In this document: positions 21,452 to 28,490 of the stretch, piece by piece
Layout: each line of letters begins with the position of its first letter
Position numbering within the stretch: the stretch's first letter is position 1
Assembly: GCF_021184045.1 (NCBI RefSeq)
Contig: NZ_CP073710.1
Span: forward strand, 1,064,685 to 1,128,684
Origin: Methanococcoides orientis
GTDB taxonomy: Archaea; Halobacteriota; Methanosarcinia; Methanosarcinales; Methanosarcinaceae
Reading direction: 5' to 3'
DNA: 64,000 bases
Made by a program: the position numbers and the translations under genes
Notes under the pieces: generated by a model
Seen by the model: the letters and a program-made list of their open reading frames with translations, nothing else
What the model was told of the DNA's origin: nothing
Database searches by the model: none

Positions 21452-21551
21452 GCACGTAACATTAAATGTTAATTATCAAATATAACCGTAATAGCTCAAA
21501 AAAATAAAAAGAGAAGCAAGGACAAATATCCTTACTTTACTTTGACTTCAC

Positions 21552-24500
21552 TTATCTCATCTGTTCATCTTCTTCATCCTTCCTTCTCTTCCAGAGAACG
21601 AAGAGGAAAATTCCCAGAATTCCTGCGATCACAGGAAGCAACCACATTGAACTTGTAAATCTTTCTTCTGTAGAATCACCTAAATGTCCACTGTCGGTTG
21701 TGGTGTCAACATCCTCACTTTCCACAGGGAACATTGCATCCATACCAAATGGCAGCGCTGCTACTGCGAACTCTGAGAATCCCGGAGTCCTCACTGTGAA
21801 GTAATAATAGTCTTTATCCACTGAAGAGGAAACAACTTCAAGCATTTCCCATTCAACATACTCAGCGCCGCAGTGAGTCACAGTTGTGGTGGTTGGATCA
21901 AGTTCATTCTGCTCATACCATGCTACAGGAACACGGATGTGGATCAGTGCACTTTCCGTGCTTCCCGGACTACTGGTGTCAATATTGATGTATCCATAGA
22001 CACGAGCTCCATTGCCTACTGCAAATGATATGTCAGCAGGTTCTTCCTAAGAGGATGATGAGCTCTGAGTGATGGTCACATCCATGTCATCGACATCCCT
22101 GCCCAGATTAATGTCCACACCGGTGACCATACATCCGGCAGTTTTGAGCTGGTCAAGTGTATCGATCTCAACGGTATCTCCTGACATGACATCTCCCACA
22201 TCAAACTCTCTGGAAGCCTCAAGTGCTGAGCAGGCAGCTTCATTTTCCTGCTTTTCCTTCAGATCCTGGAAGTAGTAGTAGTTTGGAAGACCGTTGTCAT
22301 CAGATGATCCACCCCCGGTGCTTGTTTTAACAGTTGTGAAGTTACTGATCTGGGAAGAGTTGTTGAAACCAAAAATGTCGTAGCTGACTACCTTATAGTA
22401 GTACAGTGTTTCATCCTGAAGTCCGGTTAGCATGATACTGTGATCTGTTCCAAATACTGCTTTTGAAGCATTCATAGAGACATTTGAATCGAGACCATAG
22501 TATACCGTGGAATTGGCAGCTTCATTAGTCTTCCATGAGATTGTGGCAGACCTGTCTGTCACCTGTGATGCGGTCACATTGGTTATTTTCATATCGATTG
22601 CATCAATACCATAGGCAATAGGACCGATCGGAACAATATTACCACCAAGATCCTCAACAGTCGCATTCAGATAATACATTCCGGATTGCAGTGATGTGAA
22701 GTTCACAGAAAGACTGCCGGGGTATGATGTGGAATTGAACAATCCTGTACTGTTGTAAAGGTAGATAGTAACATTCCTTATGCCCATATTATCAGATGCT
22801 GTTACATTGGCAAATACCCAGTCCTGACTGAAATTACCTGAAGGTAGCACATCATCATTGAATACAATTACCGGATCGGTTGTATCAAGCAGGATAGATC
22901 TTGTTTCAGTTTCATTGGTGTTACCGGCATAATCCCAGACACTTGCGTTCAGCTGGTAGTAATCATCAGCAAGACCGCTGAAAGTAACGGAATGAGTAGG
23001 CTCAGCACTGATGCTGGAATCAACAACTCCACTGCTGTTGTACAGGTAGATTCCGGAAGCGTTCAGCCACATGTCACTCACGCTTATGTTACCAACAATG
23101 TAGCTCTGGCTGAAATTGCCTGCATCAGTTGTCTCATCATTGAAATCGATCGCAGGTTTAGCAGTATCCAGTGTGATCTCCAGAGTAGAGGTAGTGTTGG
23201 TGTTACCTGCAAGATCAACTACGGTTGCATTCAGGTAATAGACACCATCAGCAAGACCTGTGAATTCGTTGGAAAGGTTACCATTACCTTCGGTTGTACT
23301 GGAATCCACAAGTGAACTCTCATTGTACAGGGATATTGTAAGACTGGAATAGCCGAATAAATCGAAGGATGTAACGTTAGCAAAGATACTGGTATGACTG
23401 AAGTTACCTTCAGCAGTTGTATCCTCGTTGAATACAATTAACGGATCGGTTGTATCAAGCAGGATAGATCTTGTTTCAGTTTCATTGGTGTTACCGGCAT
23501 AGTCCCAGACACTTGCATTCAACTGATAGTAACCATCAGCAAGATCGCTGAAAGTAACGGAATGAGTTGAATCAGCACTAATGCTGGAATCAACAAGTCC
23601 ACTGCTGTTGTACAGGTAGATTCCGGAAGCATTCAACCACATGTCACTCACACTTATGTTACCAACAATGTAGCTCTGGCTGAAATTGCCTTCATCAGTT
23701 GTCTCATCATTGAAATCGATCGCAGGTTTAACAGTATCCAGTTTGATCTCCAGAGTAGAGGTAGTGTTGGTGTTACCTGCAAGGTCAGCTACGGTTGCAT
23801 TCAGGTAATAGACACCATCAGCAAGACCTGTGAATTCATGAGAAAGGTTCCCAAGACCAGTGGTTGTACTGGAATCCACAAGTGAACTCTCATTGTACAG
23901 GGATATTGTAAGACTGGAATAGCCGAATAAATCGAAGGATGTAACGTTAGCAAAGATACTGGTATGACTGAAGTTACCTTCAGCAGTTGTATCCTCGTTG
24001 AATACAATTACCGGATCGGTTGTATCAAGCAGGATAGATCTTGTTTCAGTCTCATTGGTGTTACCGGCATAGTCCCAGGCACTTGCATTCAACTGATAGT
24101 AACCATCAGCAAGATCGCTGAAAGTAACGGAATGAGTTGAATCAGCACTAATGCTGGAATCAACAGGTCCACTGCTGTTGTACAGGTAGATTCCGGAAGC
24201 GTTCAGCCACATGTCACTCACGCTTATGTTACCAACAATGTAGTTCTGGCTGAAATTGCCCTCATCAGTTGTCTCATCATTGAAATCGATCGCAGGTTTA
24301 GCAGTATCCAGTGTGATCTCCAGAGTAGAGGTAGTGTTGGTGTTACCTGCAAGATCAAATACGGTTGCATTCAGGTAATAGACACCATCAGCAAGACTTG
24401 TGAATTCGTTGGAAAGGTTACCATTACCTTCGGTTGTACTGGAAGCCACAAGTGAACTCTCATTGTACAGGGATATTGTGAGGCTGGAATAGCCGAAAAC

Positions 24501-27500
24501 ATCGAAGGATGTAACGTTAGCAAAGATACGGGTCTGGCTGAAGTTACCTTCAGCAGTTGTATCCTCGTTGAATACAATTACCGGATCGGTTGTATCAAGC
24601 AGGATAGATCTTGTTTCAGTCTCATTAGTGTTACCGGCATAGTCCCAGACACTGGCATTCAACTGATAGTAACCATCAGCAAGATCGCTGAAAGTAACGG
24701 AATGAGTTGAATCAGCACTAATGCTGGAATCAACAACTCCACTGCTGTTGTACAGGTAGATTCCGGAAGCATTCAGCCACATGTCACTCACGCTTATGTT
24801 ACCAACAATGTAGCTCTGGCTGAAATTGCCCTCATCAGTTGTCTCATCATTGAAATCGATCGCAGGTTTAACAGTATCCAGTGTGATCTCCAGAGTAGAG
24901 GTAGTGTTGGTGTTACCTGCAAGATCAACTACGGTTGCATTCAGGTAATAGACACCATCAGCAAGACTTGTGAATTCGTTGGAAAGGTTACCATTACCTT
25001 CGGTTGTACTGGAATCCACAAGTGAACTCTCATTGTACAGGGATATTGTGAGGCTGGAATAGCCGAAAACATCGAAGGATGTAACGTTAGCAAAGATACG
25101 GGTCTGGCTGAAGTTACCTTCAGCAGTTGTATCCTCGTTGAATACAATTACCGGATCGGTTGTATCAAGCAGGATAGATCTTGTTTCAGTCTCATTAGTG
25201 TTACCTGCATAGTCCCAGACACTGGCATTCAACTGATAGTAACCATCAGCAAGATCGCTGAAAGTAACGGAATGAGTTGAATCAGCACTAATGCTGGAAT
25301 CAACAACTCCACTGCTGTTGTACAGGTAGATTCCGGAAGCATTCAGCCACATGTCACTCACGCTTATGTTACCAACAATGTAGTTCTGACTGAAATTGCC
25401 CTCATCGGTTGTCTCATCATTGAAATCGATCGCAGGTTTAACAGTATCCAGTGTGATCTCCATAGTAGAGGTAGTGTTGGTGTTACCTGCAAGGTCAACT
25501 ACGGTTGCATTCAGGTAATAGACACCATCAGCAAGACCTGTGAATTCGTTGGAAAGGTTACCATTACCTTCGGTTGTACTGGAATCCACAAGTGAACTCT
25601 CATTGTACAGGGATATTGTGAGGCTGGAATAGCCGAAAACATCGAAGGATGTAACGTTAGCAAAGATACTGTTCTGACTGAAGTTACCTTCAGCAGTTGT
25701 ATCCTCGTTGAATACAATTACCGGATCGGTTGTATCAAGCAGGATAGATCTTGTTTCAGTCTCATTAGTGTTACCGGCATAGTCCCAGGCACTGGCATTC
25801 AACTGATAGTAACCATCAGCAAGATCGCTGAAAGTAACGGAATGAGTTGAATCAGCACTAATGCTGGAATCAACAGGTCCACTGTTGTTGTACAGGTAGA
25901 TTCCGGAAGCGTTCAGCCACATGTCACTCACGCTTATGTTACCAACAATGTAGCTCTGGCTGAAATTGCCCTCATCGGTTGTCTCATCATTGAAATCAAT
26001 GAACGGAGCATTGTTGTCTATTGTTACACCGATAACATTGCTTGAACAGAACTTTTCAGCTGTTTCATTCTCACATGCTACCCAGGTAATATTGTAGATA
26101 CCATCTGCAAATTGGGTACTATCGAAAGTGACAGAAGAAACATCCTGAGGGAGAGAAATATATCCACCAACATCGCCTGTGGTGTTGCTCAGGCTGATAT
26201 TGGACACGAAAGCATCCTCGTTGTTATCGGTTACAGATGCATTCACGTAGAAAGTACCGGAAATATAAGCATCCGGTTCAGGTGCAATTATAGCCACATG
26301 CGGTGCTGTATTAATAAAAGTGATATCAAATTCGCTAATCTCGAAACCAGCGAGTACTTCATCGATCTGTTCAAGAACCTCACCTTCTTCCACAGTGACC
26401 CAGAGGTTGAAATTGTATGTTTCACCCGGTGTCAGACCACCAGTGGTGTAGTAGATGAAAGCGTTACCAATATCATCATCTGACATAAGGTATCGCTCCT
26501 TCTTTGAATAACAGTCAGGAACCTGAGTACAGTTGATGAAATATGTCGGTGTCTGAGAGCCGGAAAGTGAGCTGAAAGAGCTGGTCATTGCGAGGAAGTA
26601 ACCGGTACCATTATACACAGTCACACTTTCGGTTGCCAGTAGATGCGTACCAGCTGGAAGCTGGAGATCATTTGAAGCATCTGTACCCTCGTTGGAAACA
26701 GAGAAGCTACTTATCTCATATGCTCCCGAGTCTTTCAGGTCAAAGTCAAGTACCTTTCCAACAACGTTCGTATTCACACCGCTGCTCTTTGAGAAAATGC
26801 TGTAATTGGTTGATGAGGTCTCAACCTGATCTACGAATATACCGGAAACAGAGCCAACGTCAAAGGCACTTCCCTGATGTCTTGACCAGGATGTTGAAGT
26901 GTCACCTGAGTTGAGATCCTTATAGTAATATTGTAACACTGATTCCAGATCAGAACTCAGTGAGTATTTACCTATCACAAAGGTACCGGATTCAACACTC
27001 TTTTCCACAGACCAGTTAAATGCGTCATTAAATGTAGTAGAAGAGTGACTATAGCTCACATCCGTAAGCTGCTCACGAACCTGGTTTCCTTCTGCCGTAA
27101 CGAACTTCAAGAGAGTTATGTCAATATCATTAACCTCTACCGCACCGTTGCCTGTCCTGTTGAACTCATAAGTAATATTATGTGTCCCGGAAGAAGGAAT
27201 AGTGAAACTGATTGGCCTTGTTCCTGTTGAGCCTTCGTCAATATTTGACCTGTCTTTACTGAGAGACCTCATCTTTTCTTCAAGCACAGGTTCTGAGGCA
27301 CCATCAACATAGATCCTGACCCATACATCATTATCCAGAGCTCCGGTCAGTTTCACGATATTCATTGTGCTCATAAGGGTAAGGTCAACATTATCACTTG
27401 AAGTATTGAATTCCACATTTATGCCTTCAACAAATTCCGAGCTGGCGAAAGTGAAATCAGTTTCATTGAGAGGAACTGCGAGGAGGGAAGTCAGATTTTG

Positions 27501-28490
27501 TACATCTTCACTAGCACTTACCGGAGGTAGCTGCAATAAGTACGGATAACCACTGTTAATACTGTCATCCATGGACCAAATTGAAGAGAAATCCCAACCA
27601 ACAAATGTGGATTGTGTCTTCATTTCAGCTGTTGTCTTACCTGTGCCTACAGGACTTGTAGATTGACCAGAGGTTTGAGTATCCCAGTAACTATTAGTGG
27701 AAATTAACTCAAACATATCATATCCAACAAGACCACCGACAGAATCAGAACCAGTGACATACCCGGCAGAATAACTATTCAAAATTTCGCCATCCCAGCA
27801 TTCTCCAACGAGACCACCTATAATAGAAATACCAGTAACATTGCAAGTGGAATAACTATTGGAAACGGTTTCAAAATCATTATACCCAAGAAGTCCACCG
27901 ACATCATAGTCACCAGAAACATCTCCAGTGGAGTAACTCTGATCAACAGAACCTAAATTTACTCCAACAAGACCACCTACATAATCAAAACCAGTAATAT
28001 TGCCATTGGAATGACTTTGAATAACAGAACCATCATTCCATCCAACAAGACCACCGACATAATCAACACCAGTAATGTTAACATGCTCAAGCCAAACATT
28101 ATTAAGTTCTGAACTTGAACCCACATATCCAAAAAGTCCGATATAACTTGTGGATGGCCTATTTATATGAAGCCCGGTGATCACATATCCGCTACCATTA
28201 AAGCTACCTGTGAAATGACTTGAGGAACTACCTATTGGCACAAATCCGGCATTACTATTCCAGCTAATAGTTTCACTGGCATCGATATCATTAATCAATA
28301 TGTAGTTTGCTGACAAGGCAGTACTCATGTTCTGAAGCTGCTCGATCGTAGAAATCTGATATGGGTTTCCGGCAGAACCGTCCCCGACTGCAAATGTGGC
28401 TGCACTCGCAGGAGATGAGATCATCATACCGATTAATATCAGCAATAAACTAAGAAAAAGTATATTATCCGTTCTTTTTATAAATACCAT
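21552..28490 (-). CDS. Giant surface adhesin-like protein with one in-frame TAG (possible pyrrolysine)
   Basis: Reading the TAG at 22047-22049 as a residue gives 2,312 residues ending at TAA. Order: signal peptide (ending near SSPASA), GLUG repeats (about 80-300, GLVG...SYSTGDVSG), an extracellular region (330-820), six 190-residue double Ig-like units (about 827-1970), an Fn3-like domain (1975-2065), a PGF-pre-PGF domain (about 2075-2255, ending RTPGFSEFAVA), and a membrane helix with basic tail (2280-2312). The TAG falls inside the PGF-pre-PGF domain, after a Ser run. All 164 following codons stay open and complete that domain and the anchor. Without readthrough the protein (2,147 residues) would lose its membrane anchor. 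Neither product is proven. Strict standard translation would call 22047-28490. Confidence 0.75.
22600..26010 (-). repeat. Six tandem 570-bp units encoding paired Ig-like domains
   Basis: Near-identical DNA recurs with an exact 570-bp period (unit boundaries near 26000, 25430, 24860, 24290, 23720 and 23150). Each unit encodes two alternating 95-residue domains. Type A begins DFNDETTDEGNFSQ and type B begins VFNEDTTAEGNFS. The first five units are almost identical. In the sixth, type B has diverged (VFNDDVLPSGNFSQDW). Many N-x-S/T sequons imply heavy glycosylation. Confidence 0.9.

Follow-up and report, generated by a model that had tools for sequence, protein, structure and literature searches.

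A conserved in-frame TAG codon, probably read as pyrrolysine, in a giant surface protein gene of Methanococcoides

Introduction

In the 64,000-nucleotide stretch of Methanococcoides orientis DNA analysed here (the window), a giant gene for a predicted surface protein is open throughout except at a single TAG codon, and we asked whether translation ends at this codon or passes through it to the distal end of the frame. Accounts of pyrrolysine commonly tie it to the methylamine methyltransferases. Candidate pyrrolysine proteins beyond these enzymes have been predicted earlier, with tolerated mutation among the explanations (PMC1242214; PMC3639795; PMC4153887).

Results

Reading frame and domains of the surface protein

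The open reading frame (ORF) at 22047..28490 (minus strand) begins with ATG at 28490, encodes 2147 amino acids and terminates with TAG at 22047-22049. When TAG is read as an amino acid, the frame extends unbroken to a TAA at 21552-21554, for a total of 2312 residues, and the resulting 6.9 kb readthrough gene has zero further disruptions. The frame was thus as the original prediction had described it, open except for one TAG after a Ser run and followed by EEPAD. From its N terminus, the protein combines a signal-like sequence, GLUG and Big_13-type repeats, a fibronectin type III (fn3) domain, a divergent PGF-pre-PGF domain, a hydrophobic helix and a basic tail. The features are as follows.

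21552..28490, minus strand: entire gene including readthrough, 2312 residues if TAG encodes an amino acid (translation)
22047..22049, minus strand: in-frame TAG, residue 2148, predicted pyrrolysine; identical codon in the sister species (G002) and in M. alaskense
22050..22064, minus strand: five Ser codons preceding TAG; Ser kept in M. alaskense, with 4/5 codons different
21555..22046, minus strand: the 164 codons past TAG, which evolve under purifying selection (dN 0.26 and dS 1.26 in comparison with M. alaskense)
21759..22133, minus strand: divergent PGF-pre-PGF domain (TIGR04213), residues 2120-2244, with TAG inside it (profile and AlphaFold model)
22341..22586, minus strand: fibronectin type III domain, residues 1969-2050 (PF00041)
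21558..21641, minus strand: predicted membrane helix, then basic tail (AlphaFold helix 217-244 of the construct)
28398..28490, minus strand: signal-peptide-like N terminus, judged by eye from the translation
21514..21537, minus strand: terminator-like hairpin past the final TAA (consensus match only; the region has 2 such matches where 1.2 would be expected)

The TIGR04213 profile matched residues 2120-2244, across residue 2148, with a score of 45.5 bits (curated cut-off 28), and this match requires sequence from both sides of the TAG. The segment after TAG therefore does complete a PGF-pre-PGF domain and add a helix and basic tail, as had been claimed. The protein shares with the PGF-pre-PGF surface proteins of the Methanosarcinaceae the plan of an exported repeat protein with a C-terminal TIGR04213 domain above cut-off and a membrane helix. 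It differs from them in that its copy of the domain is divergent, lacking the usual NIWVG strand, and in that a search of the protein for the PGF-CTERM motif (PF18204) gave no match; SSMWLLP precedes the helix. Among about 100 PGF-pre-PGF copies in the genus, a TAG lies within the domain only in the three orthologues described below.

An alignment of 41 sequences was used for AlphaFold structure prediction (mean pLDDT 78), a model from three sequences (pLDDT 44) having been discarded as too poor. Residue 2148, modelled as lysine, is predicted to lie in the loop between construct strands 66-77 and 96-105; more strands lie beyond it, and a helix is confidently predicted at construct positions 217-244. 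Termination at TAG would deprive the domain of its second half and leave it incomplete. A Foldseek search with the domain model returned ankyrin ZU5 and adhesion-GPCR GAIN domains (probability 1.00, E 2.5e-3 to 7e-3, TM 0.3-0.4), a likeness of the model that has no sequence support and is a lead only.

Between 22600 and 26200 of the window (minus strand), the near-identical repeats FNDETTDEGNFSQ and FNEDTTAEGNFSQ occur in alternation. Ahead of the TAG, the frame is 2440 codons long in M. alaskense, 2150 in M. orientis and 1694 in the sister species, a spread that probably reflects varying repeat numbers among the orthologues.

Decoding machinery and stop codon usage

The genome, a single contig of 2.494 Mb, contains pylT, encoding tRNA-Pyl with the anticodon cta (CUA), and clustered with it pylS, pylB, pylC and pylD, each scoring above its equivalog cut-off; the complete set on which the original prediction depended is thus present. 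A family-wide genome search found PylS distributed across the family. A PF21360 search without a match had pointed to an absence of PylC, which was a miss by this short N-terminal model, as the equivalog model detects the protein. The dimethylamine methyltransferase MtbB (L063:26-1363, TIGR02368) has an in-frame TAG and served as a positive control.

ORFs for counting stop codons were selected by a simple coding-score filter standing in for a gene caller. Among 45 such ORFs of the window (one of them the segment 21552-21881, downstream of TAG), 24 ended in TGA, 20 in TAA and one in TAG, the latter being the codon at 22047-22049. We extended this to a sample of the window plus 30 stretches of 20 kb, together 664 kb or 27% of the genome, in which TGA ended 266 of 499 ORFs, TAA 228 and TAG 5. 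Four of the five TAG-ending ORFs continue in frame with coding composition: the surface protein, MtbB, a subtilase and a NosD-like beta-helix protein. The fifth, a 90-residue ORF antisense to the gene for DNA polymerase D subunit DP1, was rejected as spurious. This leaves 0/499 credible TAG stops in the sampled 27% of the genome, and the rarity of TAG as a stop, first remarked on from the window, holds well beyond it. Published figures put TAG at about 4-5% of stops in Methanosarcina, at 1.6% in 'Ca. Methanomethylophilus alvus' and at 11.3% in M. luminyensis (PMC4153887).

The subtilase (L053:9451-13404, minus strand) ends in a PGF-pre-PGF domain of its own. The sister species has CAG (Gln) at its TAG, and none of the subtilase orthologues across the genus has a stop at this position, so by these alignments the TAG is recent and species-specific. 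The NosD-like surface protein (L052:10570-13842, minus strand) has a TAG in mid-gene and a C-terminal PGF-pre-PGF domain; for its TAG region, no close match was found among the other species of the genus.

Conservation of the TAG across orthologues

Across 112 genomes of the family, the entire C-terminal region was found in three, those of M. orientis, the sister species and M. alaskense, and all three carry TAG at the identical codon. Protein identity to M. orientis is 94% for the sister species and 57-59% for M. alaskense. In the codons after TAG, dN between M. orientis and M. alaskense is 0.26 and dS 1.26 (dN/dS about 0.2), with dS saturated in the codons before it. The Ser codons ahead of the TAG read AGC TCA TCA TCC TCT in M. 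orientis and AGT TCC TCC TCC TCC in M. alaskense, and TAG GAA comes next in both. Two other matches, the second hit of the genome scan and, on a Methanohalobium plasmid, a 25% relative, contribute nothing.

The original prediction had allowed for a nonsense mutation or a sequencing error. Such a mutation or error, or decay to a pseudogene, would account for the stop codon itself and for nothing further, and it is contradicted by the same TAG in three species with independent assemblies, by the constrained coding sequence past the TAG and by the lack of any other disruption in 6.9 kb; we regard it as next to impossible. That the TAG occupies one and the same codon in three species, flanked on either side by sequence under coding constraint, is more than chance. 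How strongly the codon itself is held is a separate matter. Between M. orientis and M. alaskense, a TAG without codon constraint would survive with a probability of 6-19%, depending on the distance used, and chance retention at this level means that the conservation suggests selection and nothing stronger.

Relatives without the domain, and selection or tolerance of the TAG

In two further relatives, from genomes G059 and G063, the PGF-pre-PGF domain is missing and fn3 is followed almost at once by the same helix and tail; in G063 the anchor helix is in another frame, through a frameshift or an assembly error. Each has one TAG of its own in the GLUG region, in the contexts AASS-TAG-NGGYPYLL and SSS-TAG-NGGYPYLL (L122:2301-4616, plus strand; L123, minus strand), where M. 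orientis and the sister species have ordinary codons at comparable positions. All five family members found therefore have one TAG, at one of two sites, each after a Ser-rich stretch. This pattern could reflect selection for one pyrrolysine, or Ser-rich loops that tolerate a TCG-to-TAG change.

Selection of this kind could act on a chemical or structural role of pyrrolysine on the outside of the cell, as an amine-binding electrophile, for instance, with the family keeping one such residue. The occurrence of one TAG in 5/5 members at Ser-rich sites speaks for such a role, as do the retention of TAG in M. alaskense next to a Ser run in which 4/5 codons have changed synonymously, and the fact that other surface-protein TAGs of the genome are not retained, that of the subtilase being CAG in the sister species. 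Set against these are the 6-19% expectation for unconstrained retention, which rises to about 40% for the pair G059 and G063, the tolerance of Ser-rich loops to change with TCG only one step from TAG, and the fact that in two species the site has moved, or was lost with the domain. We consider a selected role possible, at perhaps one chance in several, and somewhat more doubtful the narrower proposal that selection on this Methanococcoides family favours the display of one pyrrolysine and no more, placed in a Ser-rich loop of the C-terminal domain in three species and of the GLUG region in two.

TAG in other genes

With TAG treated as a sense codon, many ORFs had it only in a short, low-scoring stretch upstream of the likely start, and these were excluded. 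DP1, the small subunit of DNA polymerase D (PolD) and the most informative control, has an in-frame TAG in four of 11 Methanococcoides species. In M. orientis (G000:C1:2065600-2067327; loci L145, L152, L154 and L155 with the orthologues) it lies in a linker, where the sister species has GAG. In G037 (which we take to be M. burtonii), M. alaskense (G061) and G063 it lies in EYFD-TAG-VPEHIK, ahead of the GNHD motif, where G062 and G059 have CAG. PolD is regarded as essential in euryarchaea, and UAG readthrough should therefore occur in all growing cells of species with a TAG in DP1. An EamA transporter (L065:5394-6260, minus strand) has TAG at about codon 50, within the EamA domain, and a histidine kinase in G059 and G063 has it inside HATPase_c (ENGSI-TAG-INA; L122:5975-7336, plus strand; L123, minus strand). 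The kinase shares contigs with the surface-protein relatives in these two genomes.

The scarcity of TAG as a stop, together with its presence inside unrelated genes, suggests that it behaves as a general sense codon. The view of pyrrolysine as an exception outside methyltransferases does not hold for Methanococcoides. Our preferred reading, to which we give a probability of about 0.88, is that UAG is in practice a pyrrolysine sense codon in this genome. The ribosome would decode it constitutively at residue 2148 of the giant exported protein and continue into the remainder of the PGF-pre-PGF domain, the membrane helix and the basic tail, so that the default product would be a surface protein anchored in the membrane, its one pyrrolysine lying in a loop that follows the Ser run. 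The insertion of pyrrolysine and the surface location we infer, as we do the origin of the TAG in a tolerated change of the Ser-rich loop that later persisted.

Termination at TAG as an anchor switch

The original prediction was of pyrrolysine readthrough or a switchable anchor, and its first half is strongly supported by the pyl genes and the orthologues. In the second, termination at UAG would free the 2147-residue protein and readthrough would anchor it, in a ratio set by pyrrolysine supply and hence by methylamine availability. The TAG is conserved and lies upstream of the anchor, a position that would permit this, and in the bacterium Acetohalobium arabaticum decoding is known to depend on the substrate (PMC8211752; PMC4153887). 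TAGs within DP1 and other housekeeping genes, however, argue that decoding should be constitutive, and TAG hardly serves as a stop in the M. orientis genome. Stopping in mid-domain would yield an incomplete domain, and in the relatives with a GLUG-region TAG it would leave only a short N-terminal piece, so that its effect would not be common to the family; these two relatives moreover still encode the anchor after fn3 (in G063 in another frame). The terminator-like hairpin lies past the final TAA and not past the TAG. A search for a PYLIS-like stem-loop just past the UAG gave no support for a conserved RNA element: z was -1.94 in one sequence and many pairs were broken in M. alaskense, in a comparison of three sequences only. 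The switch is thus weakly supported and we think it improbable, although some termination at UAG may occur alongside pyrrolysine decoding.

Discussion

Kivenson et al. are said to have described, in Science in 2025, archaea that decode essentially all TAG as pyrrolysine (the 'Pyl code'). M. orientis has in common with them complete pyl genes, a TAG almost unused as a stop and in-frame TAGs in many unrelated proteins, and the general principle is reportedly published already. A limited literature search found no report on the surface protein, the DP1 TAG or the 'Pyl code'. In 'Ca. M. alvus' 16 pyrrolysine proteins were predicted, half of which have homologues without TAG in two other genomes, and its TAG genes were explained by constitutive decoding with stable, tolerated mutations (Borrel et al. 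2014, PMC4153887). Both organisms use TAG very rarely as a stop and have in-frame TAGs beyond methyltransferases; the surface-protein TAG differs in having been kept across synonymous distances near or greater than 1. With MtmB, MtbB and MttB the gene shares an in-frame TAG and the same pyl genes, MtbB being present here with its TAG. In those enzymes pyrrolysine is catalytic, whereas the surface protein is no such enzyme and its TAG falls in a loop. From the sequence comparisons, the gene is an unusually well conserved addition to the predicted pyrrolysine proteins outside the methyltransferases.

If TAG is an ordinary codon across the genus, including in a DNA polymerase subunit, growth would require pyrrolysine whatever the substrate. 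The surface protein offers a long-conserved case for asking whether pyrrolysine outside methyltransferases is selected or tolerated, and selected display of a single pyrrolysine, if true, would be a selected use of this residue beyond methyltransferase catalysis. Annotation that ends frames at TAG would cut such genes short, and the surface protein would appear secreted, its anchor lost.

M. orientis has 16 PGF-pre-PGF domain copies, and 3/16 of these proteins have a TAG between coding stretches. Outside them, the sampled TAG genes were only methyltransferases, DP1 and EamA. Surface proteins may gain TAG more often.
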